NCBI GenBank assembly: GCA_964030475.1
Contig: CAXIPT010000002.1
Span: forward strand, 2,716,422-2,780,421
Length of the DNA: 64,000 nucleotides
Origin: Tethya wilhelma
Lineage: Eukaryota; Porifera; Demospongiae; Tethyida; Tethyidae
Direction of reading: 5' to 3'
In this document: positions 32,901 through 57,418 of the stretch, piece after piece
Layout: each line of letters starts with the position of its first letter
Position numbering within the stretch: position 1 is the first letter of the stretch
Translations under genes and position numbers: made by a program
Notes under the pieces: model-generated
The model's database searches: none
Told to the model about the DNA's origin: nothing
The model's input: the letters and a program-made list of their open reading frames with translations, nothing else

Positions 32901-34000
32901 GTAAACACAAAGTAGAGTACAGAATCAAAGATGCCACAGTGACTGTGAAAGGTAGTAGTACTTCGAGCAAACCAGGTAAGATTTTTGAAATTGAAGGACC
33001 TGAGAATGCTGTAGGCAAAGCTGTAATGGACATTCAACGTGAGATTATCAAGTTTCAATCAGAAGCCCCATCCACAGCCAGTGCAGTGATTGAGTATCCC
33101 CGAGAATGGAAAACTCAAAATAAAACAACACAGGTTTTTGAGCTGTCTCCTTATTTTGACGAAAGACACAAAATTATTTCTAAATTGAAAGAAACATTGC
33201 CAGATTCCACAGTAATTAGTGTCAAAAGAATTCAAAATAAGTGGCTTTGGGAGAAGTATGAACAATGCCGAAGAAGAATGCACGAAAAGAATTCAGGAAT
33301 CGTGAACGAAAAACAACTTTTTCACGGTTCTCGAAATACCTCTGCTGAGAAGATCTACGATTCAGAGGAAGGCTTTGATATGAGATTCTCGTCCAAAGGA
33401 ATGTGGGGTCAAGCCAATTACTTTGCTGTTGATGCTAGCTATTCTGATTCTTATGCCTATCTAAAGACCGACGGTACAAAGGAACTCCTCCTAGCAAAGG
33501 TACTCACTGGATGCAGCTATACTTGTGGATCAAACAGTGAACTTCGTATGCCACCTGAAAAACCCACTAGCAGTAATACCAAGATTCAACTCGGGCAACA
33601 GCGCTACGATACAGTGAATGGAAACACCAATGGTACTGAGGTGTACATGACGTACTCAAACGACAAGGCATACCCTGCATACCTCATTGTGTACTCAACC
33701 AGGACCTCTATGTATCGAGCAGCAACTGCCACAGCTACACCTCGACCGATTGCAACAAGCCACGCTAGCACTGGATTGAATCCCACTAGATCTTCATATG
33801 TTCCTGCCACACAAAATACATCACGGCCTCCACAGCCAAGTACTGGTGCCTCAAACACAATTCATTACAGTACGCCAACTTCACAAACTCCTCAGTGGTC
33901 ATCACAACCTACAAGTAGTCCATCGAGTGGAGGATACACCAGTGGTAGTTCTCAACAACAGTCTACAAGAAAATCAAGTACTCAGTGCTGTATTAGTTAA
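29912..34000 (+). CDS. RRM-WWE-WWE-PARP protein (PARP10/14-like), copy 1
   Basis: Intronless 1362-codon frame. Order: Arg-rich basic N-terminus (RRRRRPRKRRPR); RRM at about 45-128 (RNP2 CELFFRG, RNP1 RGFNFIKF); a long middle with KH-like segments (VCVTIKGNKVNAEGVIEKL, LVITLRGPKQNLARAKEMVE); WWE domains at about 776-845 (LQWQWHDD) and 854-925 (IQWSYLND); PARP catalytic domain at about 1074-1240; Ser/Thr/Gln-rich tail. Catalytic motifs: LFHGSR (His about 1138) and GQANYFAVDASYSDSY (Tyr about 1170). Aligned through AYPAYLIVY, the residue at the PARP1 Glu988 position is Val (EVYMTY), which predicts mono- rather than poly-ADP-ribosylation, as in PARP10/14/15. No macrodomain was seen. Architecture suggests an RNA-linked, antiviral- or stress-type ADP-ribosyltransferase. 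Tandem paralogue at 35455. Confidence 0.92.
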   Translation: MSEQRRRRRPRKRRPRTSDSTSDTDARTRRETETYQSAKTEDSNCELFFRGMNCQLHNSINKKSIRCHFAEFEQDIVRVIIPQNQETKQPRGFNFIKFTSHQVAVEAQKKFHGSIFLDKYRLYVDMRKPPGSAAKKMSTSKTSDVPTVRDTRKMMYCGNYPLKLEAKIIDRNEFQAKLNSIASHNGTQIEMKRDRRIDICGNRIKDVENSWNEIEVFLNTIPMSVQLSSASMKLLQVKNASYLDQLRRQCEVQIPPTTVSNKTVCVTIKGNKVNAEGVIEKLKDFSSKCCVELFEAQYPKNRAKQWKIHLNCLSNQQPNVLIETDEGITSSRIAMDESSPKRPITVMIVGTDKDAVKDLKAKVLNDDNYLQTTKRRMKLSSKEFEMVLSNKEKLELKLEQFYSTVIELQSDKKVVQLEVPILLESNIESAEQEIMKIIGTHSEDHSQPTGETLFRFDDIVLGMLITGESRYLQEIQREASQKSVIVHIELKPVPLLRLRGGQSQDVEAIQEKICSLSQSAKKEIDQTQTEVSLTSYQLLCTDAFSKCQEELLEKQFVNVTYPPQENLLRQQLLCTSLGYTITLQLCVGDVTTENVDTIIIDFKLAETLSDPLFQEKFKGYIQKNGVPMIGSVTCFESGKLPCRSVIVVPIPNWKKSNDTWTHESIELRLAQYEEPLVFSDFKGFGTVSFILSENSNVLVDMSTWLLIRMIEQFCKSHPKTSIHTIRIAVSQQSSAECTMMYDKHVPAMKVAKKTPAPPKQIPHKQSSPLLPGIPSLQWQWHDDNGFKDYPPNISAKLTKTKRCNPTGKCSFVANGKSYEVDMSTMEQRNTTTGFIRKVHQVSSDSQVSTTQRGLRIQWSYLNDQNIPTPYTPNDSNTIETIYNGSLSETTQVTIQGRRYKFDFTMMKQINATTNTKRSIQRKEIPAPTSPRKEVKESPPLKAEKEPLVITLRGPKQNLARAKEMVEMKLKELCHKETVSLPQTASNQLQQKLHTIVRKHKVEYRIKDATVTVKGSSTSSKPGKIFEIEGPENAVGKAVMDIQREIIKFQSEAPSTASAVIEYPREWKTQNKTTQVFELSPYFDERHKIISKLKETLPDSTVISVKRIQNKWLWEKYEQCRRRMHEKNSGIVNEKQLFHGSRNTSAEKIYDSEEGFDMRFSSKGMWGQANYFAVDASYSDSYAYLKTDGTKELLLAKVLTGCSYTCGSNSELRMPPEKPTSSNTKIQLGQQRYDTVNGNTNGTEVYMTYSNDKAYPAYLIVYSTRTSMYRAATATATPRPIATSHASTGLNPTRSSYVPATQNTSRPPQPSTGASNTIHYSTPTSQTPQWSSQPTSSPSSGGYTSGSSQQQSTRKSSTQCCIS

Positions 34001-35454: not shown

Positions 35455-38400
35455 ATGAGTCGAAGAAGAAGAAAATCTTATTCAATATCTGAAGGCAATT
35501 GCGAGCTATTTTTTCGAGCTCAAAAACGAAAGTTGCCAAACTACATCTATAGCAAACACATACGAGAGCACTTCAGCAAATTTGAAAGTGATATTGTGAA
35601 CATAATTATTGCCCGAGATGAGACAAAGAGATCGAAAGGATTTGGTTTTATCAAGTTCACCTCTCACCAAGTTGCTGTGGAAGCACAAAGAGAGCTTCAT
35701 GGAAGCATGCTTCAAGGAAAGTTTCAGTTGTATCTTGACATGCGTAGGCCCTCGACGTCTACATCTGAATCAGCAAGTTCTCCTGGATCAAAATATTCGA
35801 AAGAGTATCAGTTGCAGCCTGAAGCTTTGAACATTGAAGGACTATCCCAAGCTATAACTACAATCTGCTCACAAAAGAACACTACTGTAGTCCAGACTGG
35901 TAGTTGTGTTGCCATCTCTGGGAATATTCTTACAGGCATTGAAGAGAGTTGGAAAGAAATTAGTGAGTTTGTGGAACAGAATCTGCCAGTCACAAGATTC
36001 GTTCAGGTAAGTTATGGCTGTGTCCAATTTCTCAAAGTGAAGCATCTTGCCTACCTTCAAGGACTAAGAAAACATTGCAAAATTCAAATACCTCCCACTT
36101 TCTCTTCGACATCAGCAGAACCTGTTACAATCACGCTTCAAGGAAAGAAAGAAATCACTGAGGCTGTGCTTGACAAGCTCAAGACTCTCTCTTCAAAGTT
36201 AAAAGTTGAAACATTTCAGATGCAGTGTCCAAATAAGTTTGCGAAGTTATGGAAAAGAAGGTGGGATCAATTTAGCAACGAAAATGCCAACCATCCAAAC
36301 GTAATGATAACTTTCACCACTACTCAACTGACAGGGATAAGAGGAGGTAAAAATACAGTTACTGTTTTGATTGTTGGTGGCAAACAAACTGTTCAAGATC
36401 TCAAAACTAAAGTACTCAAAGATGAAAATAGTTCAAGCGTGACTACACAAAGATTAAAACTGTCCAAAGAGGAGTTTCAATCAGTTTCATCAAACAAGGC
36501 ACTACTGGAAGTAACGTTAGAACAAGAACACTTTACTTCAATTACTCTTGAAAACCATACAAACATTGTTGAGTTGCAAACACCATCATCACTAGAAATG
36601 CACATGGAAGCAGCGAAACAAGAAGTACTAAAATTCAGTGGAACCACCTCCCAGGATCAGCTACGTACTATCCTTAAACAAGATTGCTTTGATGATGCAG
36701 TGATAGGCATGCTGCTTACAACAAAAGCACAGTACTCTGAGGAAATTCTGAAAGAAGCATCACAAAGGTCAGTAATTCTCCAAATTCAGAAAAAGCCTAA
36801 GCCAGGTTTTCAGCTAAGAGGGAGTAAGAAAGATGTCGAAGCAGTACAGAAAACAATCAGTTATTTAAAAAGAGCTGCTGAAAGAAATATTGATCAAACT
36901 CAAATGGTAGTCACTAGGAGTGCAAATCGTCTCCTCACTTCTGATGCTTTCTTAAAGCACCAGGAAGAACTTCTTGAGAAGATGTGTGTAAGAGTTACCT
37001 ATCCACCTCAGCAAGGAATTATCTGCCAAAGACTGCTACGTACATCTTCTGGGCACATTATTACTTTTCAGCTTTGCAAAGGCCAAATTGTCACTGAATA
37101 TGTTGATGCAGTCGTCATTGATCTTAACCAAACAAGCCTGTCAGATTCTCTCTTCCAAAAACAGTTTTCTGAATATGTTCAAACAAATGGTGTCCCCCCA
37201 AAAACTGGAACTGCGGTTTGTTTTGATAATGAGTCTCTTCCTTGTCAAAGTGTCATTGTTGCTCCATGTCCAAAGTGGAAAGGTGATTCAGGTTTGTCGA
37301 TTGATAAACTTTTCTCTCCTTACAAAGAATCACTGTCCTGTTCTGTTTCCAGAGGATTTCTTACTCTATCGTTTATTTTTTCTGGAGCTAGCTTGCCAAC
37401 AGCAACATTACTTTTAGTGTATGCAATAGACGATTTTTGTAGCACTTGCCCTGAAACACATATTCACACAATACGTATTGTACTTAATTCAGAATCTGTC
37501 AGCTGTACTAAAATATTTGTCAGTAAAGTCGCTGAAATGAAGCATGTCACCATCGTACCAAATTATATTGACCAACCTGAGAAAAGTCAACAGTTTCAAT
37601 GGCTATGGCATGATGACCGGAAACAGTTCACTTTATATCCTGCAAATATCTCTGATAAGCTTACTAATGCCAAGAAATCTAATCCAGCGGGAACATGCTC
37701 CTTTGAAACCAATGGGAAAAGGTACATTGTTGATTTCAATACAATGGAACAGAAAAATGTTGTCACAAATTTTACTCGTAGTGTTCGGTGTATCACCAAG
37801 TCAGTGTTAACAGGTGGGCTTCACCAAGAATCTCAGACTGAGAGTACTAGTATTGCTAGTACTCAGTCCATTCAATGGTACTACATGGACGATCACAAAA
37901 CGTTTACTCCCTACACAAATGAAGATTCTGATTTCATTGAAAAAATGTATGGTGGACTATCAAAGCATATGGCACAACTCCGTGTGATCAATGGACGTAC
38001 ATATGAATTTGACTTTACAAAGATGAAGCAGATCAATGTTTTAACACGTCACGGTAGAAGTATACAAAGAAGAGTATCAGATTCTGCCATGGCCTCAGAT
38101 AGCAAGAAAACAGAAGAACTAGCTACTAAGAATCAGAAGTTGATAATTACTTTATGTGGTCCTAAAGGGAATCTTGTACCAGCAAAGAAGAGTGTGGAAA
38201 TAAAACTCAAGGAGTTACGCTACACCAAAACAATTTCCTTGCCTCAACCATTATCGAATCAACTTCAAAAGAAACTCGACACCATCTTATCCAGGCATAC
38301 CGTTGAATATAGAATCAAACAGGATTCTACCGCTGATTCAGAAGCTACTAGTCCAAGCAAACCATGCGAAATAGTTGAAATTGAAGGACCAGAGCATGAA

Positions 38401-39492
38401 GTACACAAAGCAGTTACTGAAATTCAAGATGAGATAATCCAATTGCATTCAGCAGTGGCTAGTGTTTCAATTGAGTATCCTAAAGAATGGCAGCCTCAAA
38501 CAAAGACAACTGAGGTGTTTGAACTTTCATGGTTTTCTGATGAAAGACTAAAGATAAATTTGAAACTAACCAAAACCTTGCCTAGTGCTTCAGTCATCAG
38601 CATCAAACGTCTTCAGAACAAATGGCTTTGGGAGAAGTATGAACAGTGCCGGAGAAGGATGGATGAAAAGAATTCAGGAATTGTAAATGAAAAAGAGTTG
38701 TTTCATGGCTCCAAGCGAACCTCAGCAGAGCAAATTTATGATTCACAGGAAGGCTTTGATATGCGATTCTCTTCTGAAGGAATGTGGGGTCGAGCAAACT
38801 ACTTTGCCATTGATGCTAGTTATTCAAATTCGTATGCTTACAGAAGGCAGGATGGTAGCAAAGAGCTTCTACTTGCTAAAGTACTCACTGGGGATAGTGT
38901 CCGAAGTCCCCCCGACAATACTCTTCGAATGCCTCCTGAAAAAACTACACTCTCACACACTGATAGCAGTGTTCAACTTAAACAACTCCGATACGACTCA
39001 GTGAATGGAGTTACACGAAGCACACAAGTGTTTATGACCTATTCCAATGAGCAAGCATACCCCGCATACCTCATTGTGTATTCAGATTCAAATCAGCCAG
39101 AGTCAGGCGCTGTAGTGTCACCCACTGTACATTCAGCTGCAGTAGCTGTCAATTCTACAAAAGGTACTTCTAGTATGAGTCAAACAACCAGCCAGCCACA
39201 GAAAATTTCAAGGCCACCTACTGGACAATCAGTAGCTACTAAAATGCGTACACCTAGCTTGAGCCAATTATTACCGAGTAAAACTTCAAAGTTATCTTCA
39301 ACCAGTGCACAAGTAGCAGCTGCCCAGTCTGCTAAAATGCTCAGTATACCTAGTTCAAGCCAAGTAGTAACACAGAACAAAACTTCCGCATTAAGGCCAT
39401 CCTCAAATATGGCACAATCAGCTGTCCAGTTAGTACGTATACCTCTGACCAGCCAACCACATGCACGAAAAAAATTTAAGGATCTACCGTAG
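35455..39492 (+). CDS. RRM-WWE-WWE-PARP protein (PARP10/14-like), copy 2
   Basis: Intronless 1345-codon tandem paralogue of the gene at 29912 with the same domain order. RRM at about 15-100 (RNP2 CELFFRA, RNP1 KGFGFIKF), KH-like middle, WWE at about 713-780 (QFQWLWHDD) and 805-875 (IQWYYMDD), PARP domain with LFHGSK (His about 1084) and GRANYFAIDASYSNSY, then a Ser/Thr/Gln-rich 120-residue tail. The third triad position is Val (QVFMTY), as in copy 1, so mono-ADP-ribosyl transfer is predicted. The PARP and WWE parts are strongly conserved between copies, while the middle and tail diverge, so this is not a recent duplicate. ATG lies one base after a likely splice acceptor. Confidence 0.92.
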   Translation: MSRRRRKSYSISEGNCELFFRAQKRKLPNYIYSKHIREHFSKFESDIVNIIIARDETKRSKGFGFIKFTSHQVAVEAQRELHGSMLQGKFQLYLDMRRPSTSTSESASSPGSKYSKEYQLQPEALNIEGLSQAITTICSQKNTTVVQTGSCVAISGNILTGIEESWKEISEFVEQNLPVTRFVQVSYGCVQFLKVKHLAYLQGLRKHCKIQIPPTFSSTSAEPVTITLQGKKEITEAVLDKLKTLSSKLKVETFQMQCPNKFAKLWKRRWDQFSNENANHPNVMITFTTTQLTGIRGGKNTVTVLIVGGKQTVQDLKTKVLKDENSSSVTTQRLKLSKEEFQSVSSNKALLEVTLEQEHFTSITLENHTNIVELQTPSSLEMHMEAAKQEVLKFSGTTSQDQLRTILKQDCFDDAVIGMLLTTKAQYSEEILKEASQRSVILQIQKKPKPGFQLRGSKKDVEAVQKTISYLKRAAERNIDQTQMVVTRSANRLLTSDAFLKHQEELLEKMCVRVTYPPQQGIICQRLLRTSSGHIITFQLCKGQIVTEYVDAVVIDLNQTSLSDSLFQKQFSEYVQTNGVPPKTGTAVCFDNESLPCQSVIVAPCPKWKGDSGLSIDKLFSPYKESLSCSVSRGFLTLSFIFSGASLPTATLLLVYAIDDFCSTCPETHIHTIRIVLNSESVSCTKIFVSKVAEMKHVTIVPNYIDQPEKSQQFQWLWHDDRKQFTLYPANISDKLTNAKKSNPAGTCSFETNGKRYIVDFNTMEQKNVVTNFTRSVRCITKSVLTGGLHQESQTESTSIASTQSIQWYYMDDHKTFTPYTNEDSDFIEKMYGGLSKHMAQLRVINGRTYEFDFTKMKQINVLTRHGRSIQRRVSDSAMASDSKKTEELATKNQKLIITLCGPKGNLVPAKKSVEIKLKELRYTKTISLPQPLSNQLQKKLDTILSRHTVEYRIKQDSTADSEATSPSKPCEIVEIEGPEHEVHKAVTEIQDEIIQLHSAVASVSIEYPKEWQPQTKTTEVFELSWFSDERLKINLKLTKTLPSASVISIKRLQNKWLWEKYEQCRRRMDEKNSGIVNEKELFHGSKRTSAEQIYDSQEGFDMRFSSEGMWGRANYFAIDASYSNSYAYRRQDGSKELLLAKVLTGDSVRSPPDNTLRMPPEKTTLSHTDSSVQLKQLRYDSVNGVTRSTQVFMTYSNEQAYPAYLIVYSDSNQPESGAVVSPTVHSAAVAVNSTKGTSSMSQTTSQPQKISRPPTGQSVATKMRTPSLSQLLPSKTSKLSSTSAQVAAAQSAKMLSIPSSSQVVTQNKTSALRPSSNMAQSAVQLVRIPLTSQPHARKKFKDLP

Positions 39493-42110: not shown

Positions 42111-42542
42111 TAGTTAAGTCTTACTTTTTCAAGTGGAACTTCGAGGCAATATTTTTCTCCTCTGCACTGTCTTGCCACTTTATAAGCAACTGTATACATG
42201 AATACCAATATCCTTAGGGACATTCTTACTATAATATTATAATTTATTATCTAAATGTTTTATAGGACAGTCGGACCTCCAAACAAGGAGTTTTAGGTGA
42301 AAAATAAAAAACTTCCCAACAGAGGACAACCTCTGAATAGAGGTCAAAAGCCATGCTCCGAAAGTGTCCCATTCTGGGACATATTTAGCTATAAACAGTA
42401 GCTATGCAGTGTACCGTGGCAGATCGATCTATACAGTGCAAAGATTCTTATATAGGCAGAGAGGAAATGATAATGGAATTGACAATTTGTATTCTGTGTT
42501 GATGAAGACAGAGACAACTANCAATACAACGCGACATCATAC

Positions 42543-42655
42543 CATCATTGAACTGTTTGTCAGGGTCCTTCATTGAGAGCTGCTGTAGAAGTCGCTTGTT
42601 GAGAACATCCGGAATTTTCTTCTTAGTGACATGAAGTATACCCATACTAGGAAAC
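42543..42655 (-). CDS. NF-kB RHD exon (GILHVTKKK)
   Basis: 113-base exon (acceptor GCGCAATTTTAG, donor AATGATG|GTATGA; phase 2 in, phase 1 out) encoding [20 protein letters not shown] followed by [18 protein letters not shown].(N/S)(L/M)GILHVTKKK is a signature of p50/p52-type RHDs. It lies 21 bases from the N at 42522 that ends NF-kB sequence. Confidence 0.9.
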
Positions 42656-44507
42656 CTAAAATTGCGCAATGTGTATAATTATGTACAATAATATTACATA
42701 ATACATTAAATTTATCATTTACGCACAACTAAACTAAGCATGTAGTAAAAATTTCAAAAAATAGCAGTGTAGGAATGGGCAGTGCTATGAAAAGTATTGG
42801 AACAAGGAATAGTCTCAATTTCGGCACATGACTACTTCATTTTCATTTTTGATCCCTCATAGCTATATAAATTTGTTGTAAATGGTTCAAAGAATGATTT
42901 GTATTTAAATAGCTGCATTTATCACACTAATGGTTCAAAATCTTATCACTCAGCTAAAAAGTGGAATAAAGTACAGCAGGCAGGTTTAGATTACCAGCCA
43001 AGACTTGGGCACAAAAAATGAAGTAGTTATGTGCCGACCATTCCTTGTTCGAATACTTTTATCGCACCGCTCGTTCCTACGCTGCTTATTTTTTTACTAC
43101 TTGTTCATTCACTTTTTTAACACTACAGTGAGGAAACTATCAGAGACTGGTAGTCCCTACAAAAAGCTTGAGTTATCTGAGAAGCAGCTATTGTCTGCAA
43201 GAACAGCTAATGCGCATGCGCATTAAATGCCACGTGGATAATCAATAACCTTTGAACTCTACAAGAAGATGGCTACATTGAAATACATGAATTTATACTC
43301 TCAGCTTCATTTCTAGTTCTTGTTTAGGCTTATTTTAATGAAAACGAGTATCAAGGAATGTAGTACCTAGCTATGAAAAGAACTTACTTTGTGCTGTCAA
43401 AGTTGGCTCAACACACTCTGGTTCTCTAGAAAAGCTTTTCATGTAAGTCAGTCAGAAAGTATGTACATACATTAGTAGAGCAAAATAGCACTCTTGTGGC
43501 GTCCCATTAGCTTTCTGTATACGAGTGCTTAGGAAGGTTTCTGTGAGTTTTAGGCCTTGCATGCAATTGGAAATCTATCATTGAGAGCCTCTGAGCAAGT
43601 TTGAAGGCTTAATTTTGTTTTGCTAGATTTTTATGATCATAAACATTCGTTGTATTGTGTCTATGGGACAGCTGGCCCATTCCTACTATACGTACTACCA
43701 TACGTATGATTAGTGTTTCTGTTGCGACAATCGAGGGAATTCCTCAGGGGCTACCCCTTGTGCTAAGGATACATTACATCATGCTATAGTCGTGCAATAA
43801 CCCATAAGATTAGCGTAAGTCATCAATTATCGTCCAGAGTTTTTTCCTCGGGCCATAAGTAAACTTTCGACCCATTACAATCTTTAGCTTATGAACTGAC
43901 ATGGCAAAAGAAGCCTACTGTACATATCTGCTTACTTCCAAAGGCTCCCAAACTTTCTTCTTTTGGACGAGCAGTCGATAAACACGCTCTTGTGTGCCAT
44001 CGTTTATCATCCACGCTATTCTGTTATTGGCTGGTCATTCATACATTTTCCTATTTACAATTATCGGCTTCTTGTTTATTTCTTGTTCTAGCATGTTTCC
44101 GGGGAAAAACCGTGCAAATTAATAAGCACCACGTAATTCAGCATATGTTTAACTACCCATTACCAGATGGATTTGACAATAGTCTTATTTATAAGTTTTC
44201 ATATTCAAGTTATCGAGCAAAAGTATATATGAACTATTTTAAAATTTTTTAGGTCATTGTTATTAATTCTATATAGTCCTAGTACTTGCTATTTGAAGCT
44301 TAGTTTTGTGTACTTTGTTGTCACTATCGTTGTCTTCCTGGGCGCTAAGAAGCTAACGAAGAATATGGAAGTCTGTTCCTATAATCTATGTGGTCGATAA
44401 CAGCAGATACCGGTCAATAAATGATGACTCACGCTACAATTCATCCCACATCTTGAACAAGAGAGAGCCACTCACATCCATTCAAAAGCTGCATGCTTAA
44501 CATCTCT

Positions 44508-44540
<33 letters not shown>

Positions 44541-44845
44541 NNNNNNNNNNNNNNNNNNNNNNNNNNNNNNNNNNNNNNNNNNNNNNNNNNNNNNNNNNNN
44601 NNNNNNNNNNNNNNNNNNNNNNNNNNNNNNNNNNNNNNNNNNNNNNNNNNNNNNNNNNNNNNNNNNNNNNNNNNNNNNNNNNNNNNNNNNNNNNNNNNNN
44701 NNNNNNNNNNNNNNNNNNNNNNNNNNNNNNNNNNNNNNNNNNNNNNNNNNNNNNNNNNNNNNNNNNNNNNNNNNNNNNNNNNNNNNNNNNNNNNNNNNNN
44801 NNNNNNNNNNNNNNNNNNNNNNNNNNNNNNNNNNNNNNNNNNNNN

Positions 44846-44903
<58 letters not shown>

Positions 44904-47024
44904 AAATCTCATTTAAAAACATATATACTCCCATACACAAGTCCATCTGCACACATGTTGACTACAAAGTAGTTTTCACATGAACAAAGCTTCTTACATA
45001 TTACAGAACAAGCTTTATCATGTATGTATGTATGTGTGAGTATTAAAGGCTCTGTGTATATGGTTAATACAGAAATTGAAAGCATTTCAAAATGCATGTG
45101 TGTGTTATCATTTCTGTTAGATATAAGCTAATACACCTTGTGAATGGCACCAGTTTTGAAAACAGTCGGCGTTGTATAATAAAGGCTTTTTTCTTGTTCC
45201 ATTAATTTTCATATACAATTGATAAAGAAGTTAGTTAACAAACACAAGGTAGAATTTTATTGCTCTACTTCATTTAATCTGACAATGATTCACAGTTCCA
45301 GAAAAAAGATATGGGGAATTCTTTAATGTCATCAGGGAGAGATATGTAAAAATAGATTAATTCACCTCCCTGCTTATGTGACATCACCAAGTGAGATCAA
45401 ATATAACTTGTAAACCATCATGCCTAAACCACATAAGACTAAAATGATTGCCTCCAAATATTTACCTTAATTCTAGTCCATGAACAAAGGTCATTTCAAT
45501 CAAAAGCACACATTACAAGCATTCAATTTTCACCAGAGAGAGATATGTAAAATAGATCAATCCCCCCCCCCCCAACAATATTACTTATAATCAGGTATAG
45601 TATATGTGATAGCAAAGCAGTAAGATTAAGTAACTAAAATTTAACAGTCTTTTTATCATGCTCTGATCGACCAAGACTTAAATAAACTTGAAACACTTAG
45701 TTTCTCACTCTGACAGTTGGGCAGGTCTTGGAAAAAATCACTCCCTCCCCTCCCTTTTTCCAAAAAAACAAACAATCAAACAGCTAGCTCCTTCAGCTTA
45801 CCCTGACAGTTGGGTAGGTCTTTTGTTTCCTGTTCTTCTCTGAGTTCTCTCCCGGTAGCCCTCCATGACTCTGACCCTCCCAGTCATAGCGGAACCTAAA
45901 CCCTCGCTGGAAGAGGAGAGAAGAAAAGAGAGAGAAAAAAATTAAAAATAACATCAGTCAGAGTGGAATATTTTCCCCAAATACTAGCTAACCTAAAGGC
46001 ACTATGTCACTATACAGTAGACAGGAAGTTACTAAAAATATTAAACATGACCAGAAACCTTACAATTTAAGTGAGCTTATGGGAGCTACTGCAGTTGTAT
46101 ATTGTCAATGGTTGTAATAACAGCTGACCACATGGTTACTATTACATGCAAGCAGTATATAACAAATACCATCTAGAGGGAAATTTTCGTGGGGGGAAAT
46201 TTTTTTGCGCATTTCGAGGTTTGGCAGCTTTCCGCGAAAAATTTCCCCCACGAAATTTGTAAGGTACTAAGTCAACACGTAATGTTGAGACACAATCCAC
46301 AAAAAATTTTCCTGCGAATTTCTATTCAAGAGGAAAACGCAAAAATTTCCCCCACGAAAATTTCCCGCTATACAGTACGCAGTACATGGAGCAAGTACGC
46401 AAACATGCACAATTTTGGACCAAAAACGTCACAAAATATTAGTCACAATTTCTATTTTTAGTTGACTATAATTATAGTGACACAGTTCCTTTAAAAGTAG
46501 AATTGTGACATATGAGTTTTGCAAATTAGCTATTTTAAAAGCTTCGATAACGAAAGCTGTATAATTATGTCTTTTAAGGTGCATGGTATTTTTACCATCA
46601 TTAATCATTTCCACCGAAAGTTGTTTTTTGTGCGGAAAAAAAAAAAAAAACATGAAAAAAATAACATTGTTCATTTTATACACATTACAAGAACAGCCAA
46701 GAATTATTACTTCTCTTTTCTTTTCTCTTCCTTCCTTTCACTAAAAGTATGCTATTTTTAGAAACCTAGCAAGTTTGGTGGGGTGATATATAGGATGGTT
46801 TTAACCAGTCTTAACCAGCCCCTGTCCTGTGTGAAAACCAATCGGTACTGTTTATGCTGATGGATAGTTTGAAAGGGATGGTGACTTCCCTTCTAAAAGG
46901 AAAATACTTTGTGTCTCAGATGGAATGTTGGGAAGGTTGCTCTGGTTTGAGGGGTTTGCTTACCGATTTGGGTTGCTCAATTATTTCCAATCTTGGCTTT
47001 AACTGATGCAGTCCTCCACCGCCT

Positions 47025-47068
<44 letters not shown>

Positions 47069-48900
47069 ATGTGTGTCTTGTGAGGATAGTGAAATATTCC
47101 GTGATAATCACATACGTCACAGTATATAGTTAAAATGTACCTAATGTACCATATACATCTATAACTAGTAAGTATAGTGTCTACATACAGTGAGTTTCAA
47201 TGCATCTAGTACAGAAGGCCTGGGAACAAGGCTAGGCAGTCTTGCATGTTTAGGTGATGAGAGTTAATTGTTGGAGTCCTCCCACTCCTTTCTGCGTACT
47301 GCTATAGTATTGACGTTGGAAATCAGCAATTAGTAACACGGAGAGGGCCTGGGGACGAGGCTAAGACTGCTCACACACATTTTTAGCTACTATATACATA
47401 CATTCGCTGGATGTATAAAATCTGACAGTATACCAATTAACCTGAATATATCCCTGAACCATAAGACGCAAACACAATGGGAGGGATCTCACTTTCCGTG
47501 GTAGGTGGAATGGGAAGTGTCTCGCTGTCCACGGTCGGTGGAATAGGAGCGGTCTTGCCGTCATCACAAGAGGTTTCGTTAAGGGATTGATCTTCTGTCT
47601 CTTGATCATTGGTTGATAGAGGTCGTTTTGGTTCGTATAAGACAATGATACCATGGTGTATCAACTCACTTAGTTGAGAAGTAGTTAGAGGAACTTCTCG
47701 ATGCAGTAAAATTGAAAATGCTAGTTGAATACAACCAGTACTAACATCTACTAGATCAATATAGTCATGTCCAAGATCAATGATTTCAGCGACTTTATTC
47801 TTGATGGCATCTATGTCCCTCAAGGTAAAGGGACAGTTGGATGCATCACGCTGAGTGCCCCCAAACCAAAGCTCATCGATTACTTTAACCACAAGAAGGT
47901 GATCTGAAGAGGAAGATGGTGACATGATGGCCAATGGTGGAACTTCAAAAATACTTCTTTTGCAGAATTTGTGGAATTTCTTAAGGTAGCTATCCAAATC
48001 TGCATGGCATTCAATACAGTGTACATTGATAATTTTTTCCAAGATTCGATAATTGATGTAAGAGATGTACTTATAACGAAACAGAAAGGACTGGAGTTCA
48101 GGTATCGTTGTGATTGCCTCCAACTTGTCTCCATGTTCGTCATGGATTGGTTTAGGTAGGCGGTGACCCGAACAAAACACAGTACTTATGACTTCTTTTA
48201 AAGGGGTAGCATTTGTCTTCAGGGTGTTGAAAACATTGCTTGAGAAATTTTCAAACTCTTCAGCAATAGCATCAGTATCACGCAAGAGTTGACTTGTCAA
48301 CCTTTTTTTCTCCCTTTCATTTAAATGTTTCACACTGAGGTATGGAAACGATTTGTCTTTCAGACCAGGACATTTTGAGCGGTCTTGAAAATACTTTTCC
48401 ATACTACACTTTCCACAGGGACATTCAAAACCACAAACTTCTACTCCTGAAGCACTTCCAGAATCAGAATCTCCACTAGTTCTACTCTGAGTTTGATTGA
48501 CTGCCCTCTTTAGCTCACTAGCTAGCTTGGTAAGGTTCGTTTGTTGAAGGACATGAACAAAATCATCGAAGTGAGCATTACTGTCCTTAATCTTGGGTAG
48601 GATCTGACTCATAAGGATACTAGCTCTGTCATAGTCATGAATGCTACACATCTCTGCTTGGGTTTTGTTGTAGTCAGTGATGAGAGACTTTGAAAGAGCA
48701 TTTACAGCAAATTTCACAACAACTGGTCTCACAGCTTCAACTACACGAGAGAAGTTTTGAATAAATACTTTATATTGAACGTACTCTGATGTTTCAATTT
48801 CACTGCCACTAGCCATACCAGCCATATCAGCCTCACTGTCAGCAGTACTGAAGCTAGTACTTCCCGTCAGTTCATCGTTAGTACAATTCGACGAGGCCAT
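42543..48900 (-). CDS. CARD protein spliced into NF-kB Rel homology domain (predicted fusion)
   Basis: Exons seen on the minus strand: 48900-47442, 47022-46964, 45906-45802, (missing exons, probably in the N gap), 42655-42543. The first exon encodes 486 residues: CARD-type death fold at about 41-133, a Cys cluster [10 protein letters not shown] at about 154-163, and a helical domain ([60 protein letters not shown]) of a kind I recall accompanying death folds in sponges and cnidarians. Its stop (TAA 47437-47439) comes only 3 bases after a donor CAG|GTTAAT in phase 1. The next exon accepts phase 1 and starts the RHD. The joined sequence reads [20 protein letters not shown]. No AATAAA/ATTAAA occurs between 47440 and 47023. 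The 3' half of NF-kB is cut off at the N at 42522. If the stop is used instead, these are two adjacent genes. Confidence 0.6.
42741..43710 (-). repeat. Foldback repeat inside an NF-kB intron
   Basis: Reverse copy from TGTAGTAAAAATTTC to CTACCATACGTATGAT. Core and arms are more diverged than in the copy at 18794 (GGGCAGTGCTATGAAAAG). It sits between the GILHVTKKK exon and the gap. Confidence 0.85.
43711..44511. other. NF-kB intron sequence
   Basis: About 800 bases with no RHD exon that I could find on the minus strand and one 86-codon plus-strand ORF without recognisable domains. Confidence 0.4.
44512..44901. other. Assembly gap flanked by (CA)n and (GA)n
   Basis: 305 Ns (44541-44845) between a CA run on the left and a GA run on the right. 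The RHD exons expected between the YPTVR and GILHVTKKK exons (about 50 residues including the HSLVGK region) are not in the visible sequence and may lie here. Confidence 0.95.
44902..45801. other. NF-kB intron sequence
   Basis: About 900 bases, AT-rich, with a poly-C tract at about 45562. A 21-base near-copy of the end of the RHD exon (AAGACCTGCCCAACTGTCAG on the minus strand, about 45705-45727) lies about 100 bases downstream of the real exon, with no upstream exon part. No other exon recognised. Confidence 0.5.
45802..45906 (-). CDS. NF-kB RHD exon b (DNA recognition loop)
   Basis: 105-base exon (acceptor CTTCCAG, donor GTCAGG|GTAAGC, phase 0-0) encoding [19 protein letters not shown] followed by [16 protein letters not shown]. 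This is the L1 DNA-recognition loop of class I (p50/p52-like) NF-kB; the base-contacting Arg, Arg, Tyr, Glu and His are all present. The redox-sensitive Cys (RFRYxC in most NF-kB) is Trp here. A 21-base partial duplicate of the exon end lies at 45705-45727. Confidence 0.94.
46167..46377. mobile_element. MITE in NF-kB intron
   Basis: About 210 bases, from TACCATCTAGAGGGAAATTT to AAATTTCCCGCTATACAGTA, with GGGGGAAATTTTT / CGAAAATTTCCC blocks in both orientations. It is the same subfamily, inverted, as the MITE at 53694-53893 (shared AACACGTAATGTTGAGAC). Confidence 0.8.
46964..47022 (-). CDS. NF-kB RHD exon a (EIIEQPKS)
   Basis: 59-base exon between an acceptor ATACACAG and donor AAATCG|GTAAGC; phase 1 in, phase 0 out. 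It encodes [19 protein letters not shown], the canonical start of a Rel homology domain, in which an (L/I)xIxEQPK motif immediately precedes RGFRFRY. Too short to be found by ORF length. Confidence 0.88.
47029..47065. repeat. (TG)n microsatellite beside an RHD acceptor
   Basis: TG run immediately upstream (minus strand: CA run) of the acceptor of RHD exon a, so it forms the pyrimidine/purine tract in front of that splice site. Confidence 0.95.
47442..48900 (-). CDS. CARD + helical domain exon (first exon)
   Basis: Single open exon starting at ATG 48900 ([20 protein letters not shown]). Acidic Ser/Thr-rich leader, CARD ([20 protein letters not shown] to [20 protein letters not shown]), Cys-rich knot, large helical domain, then a Pro/Thr-rich repeat-like linker ([20 protein letters not shown]) and a Gly-rich end (GSGIYSG). 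If not spliced it ends as a 487-residue protein at 47437. CARDs nucleate homotypic complexes upstream of NF-kB or caspases. Confidence 0.88.
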
Positions 48901-49091
48901 GTCTTCATGAGTGTCCCTGCTGCAGCTATTTTAATAGCATAAAGTTATTTAATATAGCTCGCGTGATTGCAGTTTTGGTCTCGTGTCACAATCGACGTAG
49001 TCTCGCGGAGGCCGCGAGGCGAGACTATCCATATGTATGGAAGCCGAGAGGTACGGAAGACGAGAAGAGAAGGGCAATCCGCGACGCGGTA

Positions 49092-49215
49092 CGCGAAGCG
49101 CCGCGATCGCGCCGCGCTATGCCGCCTCGCGGATCGCGAAGTGCCGCGATCGCGCCGCACTGTACCGCCTCGCGGATCGCGAAATGCCGCGTTCGCGCCG
49201 ACTCGCGGACCGCGA
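49092..49215. repeat. CpG-rich 43-base tandem repeat upstream of the CARD gene
   Basis: Two full units (49092-49134, 49135-49177) and a partial third of a 43-base unit starting CGCGAAGCGCCGCGATCGCG and ending CCGCCTCGCGGAT. Extremely CpG-rich and rich in CGCGAT/GCGATCGC palindromes against AT-rich surroundings. About 190 bases upstream of the minus-strand start at 48900, so it may be promoter-associated. Arg-rich ORFs across it on both strands are by-products. Confidence 0.9.
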
Positions 49216-49315
49216 GAAATTAGATTATGACCGCGCTGTACAACGTAACTATTCATTGATAACATTATTTTACTGTCCTATACCTTTATGTAACACATGC
49301 ATACACTTGCACCTG

Positions 49316-50573
49316 AAAAATGAAGTAGTCATGTGCCGAAACTGAGACCGTGCCTTGTTGCAATACTTTTTACCGCATTGCCCATTCCTACACCACTTAT
49401 TTTTTTAAAATTTTTACTACTTGTTCATTCACTTTTTTCAACACTACAGTGTGCAAACACTATCAGAGACTGGTTAGTCCCTACAAAAAGCTTGAGTGGC
49501 AGCTACATGCACTTCATTACGCTGGAGGCTAGTGCGCATGCGCATAATAATGCCTTCTTCTTCTTCTTCTTTTTTGCCTCCAATAAAGGAGAGTTGCCCA
49601 GCACACTATAGGGCCACAAGATTTAATTCCGTGAAAAGATCTAGCCTATATGCTTTGAGATCACACAAGAAGTCGATACAGAACCTTTGTACTTCTATAC
49701 AATCAATCCAGTTCACTCCTAGTATGGTTTCTGTAAACGATTCGGAGCACGTGATGTAATCAGGAATGCTTGCCGTAACAGAAGGCGGAGCTGCGGCCAG
49801 CAGAGCGAGGCGCTTTGACTCCAATGCTGGACAGCAACTGATAAAGTGGTGAGCATCCTCGAGGGGCGCTAGGCAGAGCTTGCAGGACGGATCTCCCTGT
49901 CTTACATTATATGAACGGTGTCTGAACCTGGAGCAATCATCTTCCAGCCCCCCACAACCTAGAAGGAGCCTCAATCTAAAGTTCGACTTCTTTGTGCGTT
50001 TCGGATCACCAACAGTATAGAGCCAGAGGTTAGAAGGAGTACCAGGAGCAACATCACACTCACTTAACAGGTATCCTTCAATGCCACGTGAATAATGACC
50101 TTTGAACTCTACCTACAAAGATGGCTGCATTGTAGTACGTGAATTTATACACTAAGTTTCAAGGCTTTGTAGTTTTTGTTTAGGCCTATTAATGATGAAA
50201 ACGAGTATCAAAGAATGTAGTACCCATGAAAAAAAACTTACTTTGTGCTGTCAAAGTTGGCTCAACACATTCTGGTTCCCTGGAAATCCTTTTCAAGTAA
50301 GTCAGTTAGGAAGTACGTAAGTACGTAAGTACGTAAGTTAGGAGAACAAAAATGGCACTATGGTGGCTTCCCACTAGCACTCTCTACGAGTGCTGAGAAA
50401 AGTTTTTGTGAGTTTTAGGCCTTGCATGCAGTTGGTAATCTGTCAGTAAGAGCCTCTGAGCAATTTTGAAGGTTTAATTTTGTTTGACTAGACTTTTATA
50501 GTGACCAACATTTTGTATTGTGTCTATGGGACAGTCGACCCATTCCTACTATACGTACTACCGTACGTATGAT
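49316..50573 (-). repeat. Foldback repeat interrupted by a LINE fragment
   Basis: Reverse copy (one inverted arm, then the long arm, ending CCGTACGTATGAT) lacking the core and far arm. The long arm is split at 49554/50086 by the retrotransposon fragment listed separately; joining the flanks restores ATAATGCCACGTG as in other copies. Confidence 0.88.
49555..50085 (-). mobile_element. 5'-truncated non-LTR retrotransposon (LINE) 3' end
   Basis: About 531 bases. The minus strand encodes about 155 residues open from the truncation point: LWLYTVGDPKRTKKSNFRLR, then a zinc-knuckle-like CKLCLAPLEDAHHFISCCP, the C-terminal signature of CR1/L2-type LINE reverse transcriptases, ending LNLVAL stop at 49606. 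It finishes in a (GAA)n tail rather than poly-A. AATGCC at 49549-49554 and 50080-50085 is the target-site duplication. Inactive. Confidence 0.85.
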
Positions 50574-51699: not shown

Positions 51700-54642
51700 C
51701 TAGTTTTGTTCTAACTCACGTACATTATCTACAAAAGTATAAGCATTGGCAACTCCTCCCATATAGTACTTCTTCCAGTATTCTGCCTGCTTTTCAAGCG
51801 GATGTGCAGGTGGTATCAACTCAGGAAAATTTGACAGGAAGAGTCTTGCAGCCAGTGCTGAATAGAAAGGCTTATCGAGATCTTCGTATTTCACATCTGT
51901 CCAGTCTATTCCAAATATTGACTTAATTTTGTCATATTTCTTTGGCAAACGTTGATGAGCTCCTGTGTTTAACGTGTCTAAATATGCAACATATGATACT
52001 TGCCATATACCTCCACTTCCATGTACGTTAACGTTTCTGCCAAAATCTGACATCACATATGCTATTCTCTTCATAAACCTGTTATCTTTTAGCATAGCAC
52101 TCCCAAAGGAGGTCAACTTTTCGATACACAAATCCACTACTTTTTCACCCGACTGGTGAGGAATGTATATTAAGTTTTCACCTTCTGTAGATTGTGATGC
52201 TTCGAATTCTTCACTAGATTTGTCATTATTTTTCTGTTGATTAAGAGACCATGTTGGTGTCTGGGTAGATGCAATTTCAGTCAATGCTGTTGCAGTAGTT
52301 GTAGTGAATGGCAAGCCTAATAATTATTGTGAGGGTTTTCTATTAGTGACTTTGGCTTTACATATATTATAATTACACTCTGATTATTAATGAAATATTT
52401 TTACTATATTTTGTGTACTACAAAATATAGAAGGGCCAAGAAATGGGCAGTGGCTGTGAAACTGCCCATTGAAATTCACTATTAGTATCAGTCACTGTAC
52501 GTGTAATGTTTACATGTAAAATCATAAAGTAAAACTGATTACTGTTGCTATAGTAGTTTTAAAGCAGTAACTGTTATTAAGATGCACAATGATGAGTACG
52601 GCAGTCTTAATTTGAGATTATTAATAATATAATTATAAGTCTTACCTTTGAATAAATAGGTTGCACTGTAGCCAGCTAGCCCAACAATGATTGCCACTAT
52701 CAGTACAATGCCAGGGGTATAGCGGCCATTACTATCAGACTTAGTGTGTTCCAAAGATGAAGAAAATTTTATTTCTGACCCTAAAATTAAAGAAACTGCA
52801 TGTGTCACTATAAATTATAAGCATATGCGTTTTGTTACTATAAAATAACCATGACCATGCAGAAACCTTACAGTTTTATGTGCGCATTACGCTAGCTGCT
52901 CAGAATTGTAATTATATGGCTGCATAACCACATAGTACTATTAAGTGAGAAACTACAAAAATTAATGTGCAATACATGCATGCATGGAGCATAGTATATT
53001 ATGCACATGTTCCCGAACGTATATAGTACCCATTTATAAACCAAAAATTACATCACAAAACACTTTCTTTATAACAATTAAAACACCGCTTATTTTGTGA
53101 CATATGGTTCCTTTAATGTATATATTTATATAAAGAGAATGATATGTATATGATATACTCTAACATATTCTAGGAAATTCAATGCAATATGATAGCATAT
53201 AAGGTTCACAAAATTTTTCAACTTTGCTGTTTGTGGGATTCCCAAAGGAGATTGATGGCCGACTTTAAGGGTGCTCGGCCATAATTATGCATGTGGTTGC
53301 TATGGACTCAGTGCATGTTTTCTTGTTGGATGCAACCGGCCAATCAGCTAGTTTATAAACAACTAAGTCGGTCTAAGACCATGCACACTATACTTATACT
53401 GCATTTCTTAGTGTACAAGTGATAACCATGGCCGAGCACGTACCCTTATTAATGGTACGATTGTGTAATACAATATGATATGCATGTACTATATGGAGCT
53501 CATTGTGATGTTGTTATTCTGTCAAATTAAAGAATGAGACAGCTAAGAATGGGTAAATGCCAGACTGCATCATGGTGAGGTGGGCCTGGCCACAGCAAAG
53601 GCCACACTAGAATACTTACAATTACTGATACATGAGGTTCGAGGTAAAAAAGCTTATACGGTTACGAGTCACAAGTGCATGATTACCGTATAGCGGGAAT
53701 TTTTTGTGTGGAAAAATTTTTGTGTTTTCGTCTTGAATAGAAATTTGCGGGGAAAATTTTCGTGGATTGCGTCTCAACATTACGTGACGACCTTGTACCT
53801 TACAAATTTTGTGGGGGAAAAATTTTGCGGAAAGCAGCCAAACCACGAAATTCGCAAAAATTTTCCCCAATGAAAATTTCCCGCTATACGGTATACGTAC
53901 ACATAAACATACCGTTGTAATTTTTGCCACACTTTTCCCTACGAATATCATTAGCGATACCCTTCTGTCCAAACTTTTGTAGAGTCCTCGCCAATGCCTC
54001 CCAAGACAGCGGATACCCAGACTTCTCTATCACTGTATCTTCTTTTCGCAACCAGGCTCTCACCATATCATCAGGCCAGGTCTGCATCTTCTCAACATTG
54101 AAGATATCCAAACCCAGTTGCACTCCAAGTCTTTTCAACTGAGCTATATCCATCCTCCTCAAACAGTGAATAACAGCAGTTGCATCATTGTCTAGAATAA
54201 ATGTAATGGACAGTAAGTTATCCACCAAAAAACTATACCGATTATAAAGCTAATAAGCAAAATTTTTAGAGTTTTTTGCCTTGATCCAGTGACCTTGACA
54301 CCTCCAAACAAAGGACACTTTGGGGACAATATAAACTCAGTTGTTTGTCCTTTGTAGAGAGGTTGTCCTCTTCTGGGAGGTTCTATATAGCTTGTTTGTA
54401 TTACTACTACAATAGGGAATTGCAAGCCTAGCTGGATACAATTAATTTAGACGGGTTGAGCCTGAGCAATGATAATACTATGCTTGGCTCCGGATAGTTT
54501 TATCTTGATATACGTAATTTGTTTAGAGCTAAGTCTAGTGAATAAGATCTAGCTTACCAGTAATGACAGTTACAGTAGGTCCAACTTCTGAATTTTTTCC
54601 TTCATCAAAGTTTTCATCAGATTCCGACGGGATGGATGCCAT
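51700..54642 (-). CDS. Death domain + TM + domain X protein
   Basis: Four exons, all phase 1 junctions: 54642-54558 (MASIPSESDENFDEGKNSEV, acidic leader), 54191-53913 (Death domain: LRRMDIAQLKRLGVQLGLDI, VRAWLRKED, LSWEALARTLQKFGQKGIA), 52780-52646 (TM: GIVLIVAIIVGLAGYSATYL), 52316-51700 (Thr-rich linker and domain X). Total 1116 bases, 371 residues. There is no signal peptide, so the Death domain is probably cytosolic and domain X outside (type II topology), an inference. Domain X matches the gene at 27443 (KVVDLCIEKLTSFGSAMLKD, YVMSDFGRN, GGIWQVSYVAYLDTL, PFYSALAARLFLS), with the same Met where a lysozyme-like fold would have Glu. A MITE sits 19 bases from the Death-exon donor. Likely a membrane-anchored adaptor or sensor; function unknown. 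Confidence 0.75.
53265..53452. mobile_element. MITE, TTAAGGGTGCTCGGCCAT termini, in intron
   Basis: Starts TTAAGGGTGCTCGGCCATAA and ends CATGGCCGAGCACGTACCCTTATTAA: inverted ends with a small internal indel, about 188 bases. Related to the AAGGGTGGTCGGACAT ends at 11808 and 13668. Confidence 0.75.
53694..53893. mobile_element. MITE next to the Death-domain exon donor
   Basis: TACCGTATAGCGGGAATTTT to AAATTTCCCGCTATACGGTA, 200 bases. Same subfamily as 46167-46377. It lies in the intron only about 19 bases beyond the Death-domain exon end (53913), so it could influence splicing there. Confidence 0.85.
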
Positions 54643-55072: not shown

Positions 55073-57418
55073 TCAAGAAGAAAAATAGTAAAGAACATAT
55101 GGCAAAAGTAACTCAGCATTATCAGGCCCAACCTTCGTCTTCTCTTCAAGGTATGCCCGACTTACAAAGAAGAATGGATCATCAGGCTTTACCTAAAGAA
55201 GTTTATTCAAAACTATAATTATATATACTGTACTGTACTTAAATTAATTATTATTATTATTACTCAGCTATAATTGTTGATGTAGTTAAGTCTTACCTTT
55301 TCAAGTGGAACTTCGAGGCAGTATTTTTCGCTTTTACACTGTCTTGCCACCTTATAAGCAACTGAACATGCATGAATACCAAAATCCTCAGGGACATTTT
55401 CAATTATATATGTAGCTTACTGTTATATAGCTAAATGTTTTAGCTATAGTACAGTTGAACCTCCGAACAAGGAGTTTTAGGTGAAAAATAACGAACTTCC
55501 CAACAGAGGACAACCTCCGAATAGAGGACAAAAGCCATGCTCCAAAAGTGTCCCGGCCTTTTTTGTTGACATTCTGGGATATATATTTAGCTATATGCAT
55601 AGTATGCAGTGTACCGTGACAGATTTATAGAGTGCTATATAAGATTCTTAGGCAGAGTGGAAATGATAATGGAATTGACAATTTGCAATTTGTAGTCTGT
55701 GTTGATGAAGAAAGAGACAACTATATTCAGTTAACAACCATGCATCAGTGGCAAGGACCAGGACATCAAGAATTCCTGCACTTTATTAGAAGATCCAGAA
55801 GCTGACCGTACGCACTTTCTCTGACATGACATAATATTTTGTGCATGCACTAGATAATAATGAGGGTGCAGGTGGTTTCCTGTTTGCCTGTTATTGGAAG
55901 CACTTTTCAAACAACATTGATTGTTCGGGAGCAGCAGTTTGTTTGTTTTTGTATTGAGGAATGGAGATTTCATCCGGGAGCACGGCTACTGTCTACTATA
56001 GAGAGGTTGTCCGCTGTTGGGAGGGTCCATTATCGGAGATTCGACTGTATATATAGCTATTAGCCTGTTACAGTATATAATATGTAATACATATTTATCT
56101 AACTTACAGAACATATCAATGTTGGGTATGTCTGGCGCATATTTCTTTGCGCTATCTCCAAATTTTGTGTCATCCACAGACTCAATGGAACCCAGTGCAA
56201 AGTTCATATAGGTTGCTTTCTTAGTCTTGACATGGTTGAGACCACATACGATGAAGAAAGAAGGATCATCTTGACCTTTGAACTGAAATGTGGAAGTAGT
56301 GTTTGAATAGGCAGCATCTCTACATGTATACGTAGAAGAGAATAATCATTGTCATCAACTTGAAATAGTTTAAATTAACTTACGTAGTCACAATTAACGT
56401 TATCGATCCACATGCTAAAATGCAAACACTTTTTGGCTATAGCCTCTCAGTCAAGCCACTCCCTCTTAATGCTTAATTTACACTTGCCTGCATGGGTACA
56501 ACTTCAAGGCTACCTTTTGCCAGTATTTATTTTGGCAATATCAGATGCTTCACTCTATTCCAAACTTTATAAAAATCTTCGTGGTATTGCTTTCATCATT
56601 CAATCATATTATGATATGGTCAAACTGAAACATCAGAAAGAGAAGACTTACTAAGGCCCATGCTACATGTGTTTATAGTGCATGTGACTACCATGCATAT
56701 GTGACAATGTGCATTATTTTATATTACACTGAATATTTTCTTACCTATTGTCTGCAAGACAATTTGTATTGTCTTCAATGCAATCCCTTCCTTCCAAATA
56801 CACCGGATTCATCAGTTCTTTTAACTTGTACTTCTCTTTGATCGTCGAATTGATTTTTGAGACAAGTTCCAATAGTGAAGCATTGTAAGAAAACTCAGTG
56901 TGTCCTGTACCACGTGTTCTCAGTGAAGGAGTATCGAAAGCCTTTGGTGTTTGATCTTGAGGTGGATGAACGAGCAACACTGGCCAAGTATAGTTGATGT
57001 AAGCTTGGACTTCGTCTGGATTTTGAAACACTGCCACTCGAAACAATACACTAAATGTGTCGTCTAGTGCTCCTGTACCCATTTTGACTAGTTTTGATGG
57101 GATTATGTCCGTATTGAGGACACTGCTTGATACTCCTGCTTTTACGAATGCCTTTCGAATCATCACGTCAGTTTCAATATCTGCTGTGGACGTGACAACA
57201 GTAGTCTTACCAAACGGATCGCCTTTAGCGTTTCCAGTCGTATTGTCATAGACAGCTCCTTTTGTTATGTTTGATACAACTGGAAATGAACTATTTAGTG
57301 TGGGGCTTGTGCTGGCACATTCATCGAATTTATCAATTGACAGCCCAATCTTCTGACAATAAGTCCCAGGGTAAACAGTACTTGCAGCCATATCCTGTAG
57401 CAAAATTGCAAACAGCAT
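55073..57418 (-). CDS. Secreted protein of unknown family, downstream unit
   Basis: Exons: 57418-56745 (start uncertain), 56319-56108, 55415-55297, 55192-55073; phases 2, 1 and 0 agree and give 374 residues. Conserved stretches: KTTVVTSTADIETDVMIRKA, YINYTWPVLLVHPPQDQT, DDPSFFIVCGLNHVKTKKAT, QCKSEKYCLEVPLEKVKPDD, AYLEEKTKVGPDNAELLLP. I recall similar proteins in protists and algae but cannot name the family or its function. Up to NTTGN the first exon differs completely from the upstream paralogous exon (60722-59945); beyond that point the two are near-identical. The start MLFAILLQ may be intronic, since an acceptor TTTGCTACAG falls right after it. May share its last two exons with the upstream unit. 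Confidence 0.6.
55796..57246. repeat. Tandem duplication, proximal copy (pairs with 59030-60455)
   Basis: Near-identical block by eye covering part of the long exon, the next intron, the DDPSFF exon and ~300 bases beyond. Its counterpart is 59030-60455. Breakpoints: inside the long exon at GTATTG (57246 / 60455), and near GCTGACC (about 55800 / 59030). A foldback repeat (58077-59006) abuts the distal copy. Confidence 0.75.

Follow-up and report, generated by a model that had tools for sequence, protein, structure and literature searches.

A CARD-like exon predicted to splice in phase to a start-less NF-kB duplicate in the sponge Tethya wilhelma

NF-kB is normally activated through separate CARD adaptors and TRAFs. 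In the genome of the sponge Tethya wilhelma, a CARD-like exon is located directly in front of a second copy of NF-kB that lacks a start exon of its own, and the sequence suggests that the two may be joined by in-phase splicing. Both lie on the minus strand of the window analyzed here, a stretch of 64,000 nucleotides (assembly GCA_964030475.1, contig CAXIPT010000002.1, positions 2,716,422 to 2,780,421).

Proteins of the NF-kB p105/p100 type have the N-terminal motif of the Rel homology domain (RHD) in common with the window copy, and the ordinary NF-kB of this sponge, found elsewhere in the assembly, also has the dimerisation exons and the Gly-rich region. The nearest NF-kB found was P0003, named Em0006g1255a by EukProt, which, from its Em tag, we take to belong to the sponge Ephydatia muelleri; precomputed Pfam matches give it RHD, ANK and Death domains, without a long N-terminal extension. 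In contrast to this type, the window copy has a CARD-like exon upstream instead of a short N-terminus, a Trp in place of a Cys, and a 3' half that is unassembled. CARD adaptors and platforms such as Apaf-1, caspase-9, MAVS and BCL10 share the predicted six-helix CARD-like fold; the sponge family, however, gives no Pfam CARD score and adds a CxCGxCS region and variable C-terminal parts. TRAF proteins have the zf-TRAF domain in common with a sister arrangement on C9 (PF02176, E 3.3e-20), but there the start of the TRAF is replaced by the CARD-like exon and an NF-kB-derived linker, the RING is recognised by eye only, and no MATH/TRAF-C Pfam match was obtained at E<=0.1.

The nearest precedent in kind, as far as the available text of PMC2575513 describes it, is the group of amphioxus "direct connection" hybrid immune genes, in which connector domains are joined straight to effectors and hub adaptors are bypassed; the sponge case differs in that a single CARD cassette serves repeatedly as a 5' exon. 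TRAF, RHD and Rel are absent as whole words from the available text of PMC2575513. At least four NF-kB configurations are named in the available text of PMC13042239, where the word CARD does not occur. Among titles and abstracts of open-licence literature on CARD fused to RHD or TRAF, no described CARD-NF-kB protein was recognised.

Re-reading of the sequence reproduced the coordinates, strand, frames and exon phases of the original prediction throughout (Table 1). The identity of the upstream exon as a CARD held in part. Its protein has a six-helix Greek-key death fold of CARD type by predicted structure, but curated profiles do not agree: no Pfam CARD family was matched at E<=1, and a 16-sequence profile found no CARD in PDB. 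The exon is thus named CARD-like. Outside this genome, two relatives were found at E<=0.001 in a protein database search. The second conserved region was modeled with low confidence in the full-length structure. An in-frame stop stands directly behind the donor of the CARD-like exon; a message that kept the intron would encode a CARD-only protein.

Table 1. Features of the CARD-like exon and the NF-kB copy in the window (slash in a donor, exon end)
Feature	Position	Strand	Remarks
CARD-like exon	47442..48900	-	1459 nt = 486 codons + 1 base; 3' end phase 1
Open reading frame of CARD-like exon, including stop	48900-47437	-	in-frame TAA at 47439-47437
CARD-like six-helix domain	48475..48789	-	residues 38-142
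Second conserved family region, CxCGxCS motif	47611..48429	-	residues 158-430; alignments A1, A2
Stronger alternative phase-1 donor, GAAA/GTGAGA	47487..47496	-	last exon base 47493; score 3.41
Predicted phase-1 intron, 419 nt	47023..47441	-	donor TCAG/GTTAAT, score 1.19; acceptor (CA)nTACACAG
NF-kB "exon 1"	46964..47022	-	phase 1 in, phase 0 out; first codon shared with last base of CARD-like exon
NF-kB "exon 2"	45802..45906	-	RHD recognition loop, Cys to Trp
Assembly gap, 305 N	44541..44845		missing RHD exon 3 may lie inside
Dispersed repeat, ~970 bp	42739..43710	-	dozens of genome matches
NF-kB "exon 4"	42543..42655	-	
Single-N assembly join	42521..42521		

The NF-kB/Rel identity of the downstream exons proved sound. 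Exon 2 reaches 39.9 bits with the Pfam profile RHD_DNA_bind (PF00554; cut-off 27), and the exons align with p50/p52 in PDB, matching the start of the RHD. With the joined exons as query, eight matches were obtained, all of them either in the window or at C2 3.70 Mb. The ordinary NF-kB at the latter place, 0.94 Mb from the window, keeps its own start exon, exon 0, which reads MMAFHQPMQMQTQN and ends in a phase-1 donor. It is followed by the homologue of exon 1 and by the beginning of exon 2; past a single N lie more RHD exons, together with the dimerisation part and the Gly-rich region. Its exon 1 is preceded by the same type of acceptor as in the window, (CA)nTACACAG. Neither the window nor the 9.6 kb that follow (1,551 bases of them N) gave a homologue of exon 0, and the open frame of the window exon 1 contains no in-frame ATG upstream to 47107. 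With both the start exon and an ATG missing, the window copy either starts in some other way or is dead. The two copies share 34 codons, with 7 synonymous changes and 1 nonsynonymous change, the latter being the Cys to Trp replacement; neither lineage is therefore likely to have evolved neutrally for long (P=9e-5).

The CARD-like exon belongs to a family with at least 93 matching places in the genome (88 of 241 candidates were scored). The tails of 32 of these 93 places were read, namely 16 of the 20 best loci and 16 picked for short open frames; four loci (L009, L010, L019 and L021) were excluded for a stop inside the match or an open reading frame (ORF) that runs off the locus, and dropping the C9 duplicate left 31. 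Donors were scored with approximate weights, in windows of 12, 30, 60 and 120 nt for 15 ORFs and of 12, 21, 30 and 45 nt for 32 ORFs, and at 45 nt with thresholds of 1.19, 2.5 and 3.5 for 31 ORFs. A phase-1 donor of at least 2.5 occurs in the last 45 nt of 9/31 tails, versus 12/530 windows inside ORFs (p=2.7e-7, a value that overstates independence, as the family members are related), and in 1/36 windows after the stop. Phase-0 donors at this threshold are somewhat raised (4/31 tails versus 14/530 inside ORFs), and phase-2 donors are absent (0/31). At the threshold of 1.19, phase-1 donors were present in 11/31 tails and in 35/530 windows inside ORFs. A predicted phase-1 donor near the end of the ORF is thus a trait of the family, beyond chance.

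Some members of the family continue into other coding sequences. The ORF of L011 runs on into a CABIT domain (E 1.5e-9, above cut-off) and that of L007 into an ATG16-like coiled coil (E 1.8e-6, below cut-off), and at L017 the CARD-like ORF is followed by sequence coding for a D-glutamate-cyclase-like C-terminal domain (E 1.8e-31). L015 has a donor TCAG/GTATAT and, about 460 bp further, a phase-1 acceptor (chosen from some 20 AG sites) and an ORF whose first 121 residues include no Met. Because phase-1 donors are enriched at the tails, and in view of L015, the CARD-like members of this family often resemble 5' exons. When the downstream ORFs of 15 loci were compared all against all, no common second exon was found except in the window and C9 pair.

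On C9, the arrangement in the window recurs. The duplicated unit includes the CARD-like exon and NF-kB exon 1; it is 91.8% identical over 1,894 columns and has no Ns on C9. The CARD-like proteins of the two copies are 96% identical (dN 0.019, dS 0.072), and all indels between them are in frame. The C9 copy of NF-kB exon 1 continues in frame beyond its former donor and joins a TRAF-like ORF. The source of this ORF (L046, C2:2682492-2683781) starts with MNSERQIKF, and the C9 form is without the ATG and the first codons. Over 420 codons, 26/1260 sites differ between the C9 and C2 forms, 10 of the changes being nonsynonymous and 16 synonymous; no indel falls within these codons, though the flanks hold many. 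Neutrality of one TRAF lineage since the duplication is unlikely on these counts (P=4.5e-5). For the C9 TRAF to keep its RING-like N-terminal part, the start would have to come from an upstream phase-1 exon, unless a non-ATG start is used.

The source TRAF-like gene is situated about 33 kb left of the window. As a separate observation, the TRAF-like gene (L023 3523-4947, minus strand, and L046) has a copy on C9 that is 98% identical in protein and fused in frame to the NF-kB exon.

That the CARD-like exon of the window is spliced in phase to NF-kB exon 1 appears probable, although not strongly so. The start-less TRAF on C9, the phase-1 donors of the family and the missing NF-kB start exon all argue for this part of the original prediction, while transcription, splicing, protein and function of a chimera are what we infer from the anatomy. 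The donor trait of the family is the strongest general support for fusion, and the weak donor of the window is its soft spot. The fuller statement, in which a promiscuous CARD-like exon acts as the 5' exon of a start-less NF-kB duplicate and yields a phase-1 CARD::RHD-type chimera, is nearly balanced and tips slightly to the favorable side. During such an evolutionary history, a member of the large CARD-exon family would have landed before a duplicated NF-kB that had lost its start exon, and would have been spliced in phase 1 to that gene's first internal exon; a copy of the CARD-exon 1 arrangement would later have captured a TRAF, as on C9. CARD assembly could then cluster or tether the RHD part, or, alternatively, the control signals of NF-kB could be lent to a CARD platform.

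A broader proposal is tentative and stands on the doubtful side: the CARD-like exon may be a plug-in 5' exon, present in dozens of copies and mostly spliced in phase 1 to unrelated effectors, so that one-piece CARD::NF-kB and CARD::NF-kB-linker::TRAF proteins arise and CARD assembly bears directly on the final steps of NF-kB signaling. If true, the fusion of an adaptor domain to a transcription factor, and to a TRAF in the sister copy, would amount to a natural experiment in pathway shortening, and would show how a multi-copy exon spreads a signaling domain throughout a genome.

Several observations weigh against the CARD::RHD chimera. The donor of the window scores 1.19, versus 2.4-5.0 in six NF-kB donors, of which the window copy itself contributes three; it is not among the nine tails that reach 2.5, and it is the weakest of the eleven at the lowest threshold. 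The stronger alternative donor at 47493 is not present in the C9 copy. The paralog L006 reads through the donor site (TCAG/GTTGGT) and has its own stop ten codons on. Selection on the NF-kB exons may predate capture of the CARD-like exon. A probe for RHD exon 3 found nothing in the window, where the exon may lie in the 305-N gap or be missing; no dimerisation domain, nuclear localisation signal, Gly-rich region or ANK repeat appears before the assembly join at 42521, and no NF-kB exon was found past that join in the window, which has assembly gaps at 44541-44845 and 42521. Trp replaces the conserved Cys of the recognition loop (RFRYxCEG), a DNA contact. Of 152 NF-kB relatives found, most of them from vertebrates, the 120 that were listed have Cys at this position.

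The evidence from C9 is open to similar doubts. The interval between the CARD-like exon and exon 1 is about 700 bp longer there by insertion and contains an inverted piece, and a 9-nt deletion takes out the last five codons of the TRAF. Loss of the ATG could postdate the duplication; the first 60 codons alone, with 2 nonsynonymous changes and 1 synonymous change, are uninformative; and C9-only DNA upstream of the CARD-like exon, outside the duplicated unit, holds a mini-exon of one codon, an ATG, whose phase-1 donor is good (3.63). For these three reasons the C9 chimera may be taken as support for fusion, not as proof. The original prediction had also pointed to the lack of a poly-A signal: there is indeed no AATAAA or ATTAAA between the two exons, but of the 13 family loci for which 700 bp downstream of the stop are present, 9 (the window locus and its C9 duplicate among them) likewise have none there. 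The argument is thus uninformative and was dropped.

The alternative that survives best, though unlikely, is a stand-alone CARD gene that ends at 47437 beside the dead 5' fragment of a duplicated NF-kB, with the C9 arrangement as a by-product of duplication. The weak window donor, the separate stop of L006 and the Cys to Trp replacement all suit such a gene, and a second copy of exons 5 and later was not found in the assembly. It accounts poorly, however, for the strong past purifying selection on the NF-kB exons, for C9, where the phase is kept and the frame stays open into a TRAF that has no ATG of its own, and for the enrichment of donors across the family.

Errors of assembly or haplotype form a second, improbable alternative, in which window exons 1, 2 and 4 and the exons of the ordinary copy make up one NF-kB gene, and the adjacency of the CARD-like exon reflects a haplotype difference or a misjoin at (CA)n. 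The two places have complementary exons, which could point to a faulty assembly; the ordinary copy sits on an island of 11.6 kb flanked by N runs of 5,000 and 9,116 bases, single-N joins occur at window 42521 and at L025 7757, and the homology between the two copies, which align only over 46525-47075 (82%) and 45863-45951 (86%), ends at the (CA)n tract. Yet the order of CARD-like exon and exon 1 recurs on C9 in the N-free duplicated unit, the synonymous divergence of the exons (about 0.3) and the identity of 82% over 587 columns imply a distance that is high for alleles, and the neighbor gene of the island was found only once in the assembly. Least probable, by a small margin, is an undetected first exon of the window NF-kB, inside the 419 bp or far upstream, with the CARD-like exon as an independent neighbor: long first introns are possible, since exon 0 and exon 1 of the ordinary copy are 1.7 kb apart, and the window interval does contain one ATG mini-exon followed by a phase-1 GT, but its donor is poor (-0.64), none was seen in the C9 interval at a score of at least 0 or, with a phase-1 donor of at least 2.5, in window 48901-50500, and the search for an exon 0 homologue failed as described above.

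With the CARD::RHD-type chimera as the preferred reading, its product deserves a more cautious description than originally given. A one-component CARD-to-NF-kB protein is plausible, but its NF-kB part is incomplete and carries the Cys to Trp change, and an ordinary NF-kB exists elsewhere in the genome. Because Trp replaces a contact residue, DNA binding by the product is doubtful, and a role as decoy or adaptor is at least as likely as that of a normal transcription factor. A working CARD-driven transcription factor is quite unlikely.

Other features of the window may be recorded briefly. The dispersed repeat lies just upstream of NF-kB exon 4, and its longer genome matches have 73-87% identity. 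Two tandem, single-exon PARP14-like ORFs are located at 29912-34000 and 35455-39492 on the plus strand, with RRM, WWE, PARP and weak macro/KH matches. Two similar ORFs (YIPH.SGE.VVDLCIEKLTSFGSAMLKDNRFMKR) are found on the minus strand at 27443-27913 and 51700-52314, the latter without a Pfam match at E<=1. Another pair of ORFs, at 56741-57418 and 59941-60747 on the minus strand, are near-duplicates of each other.

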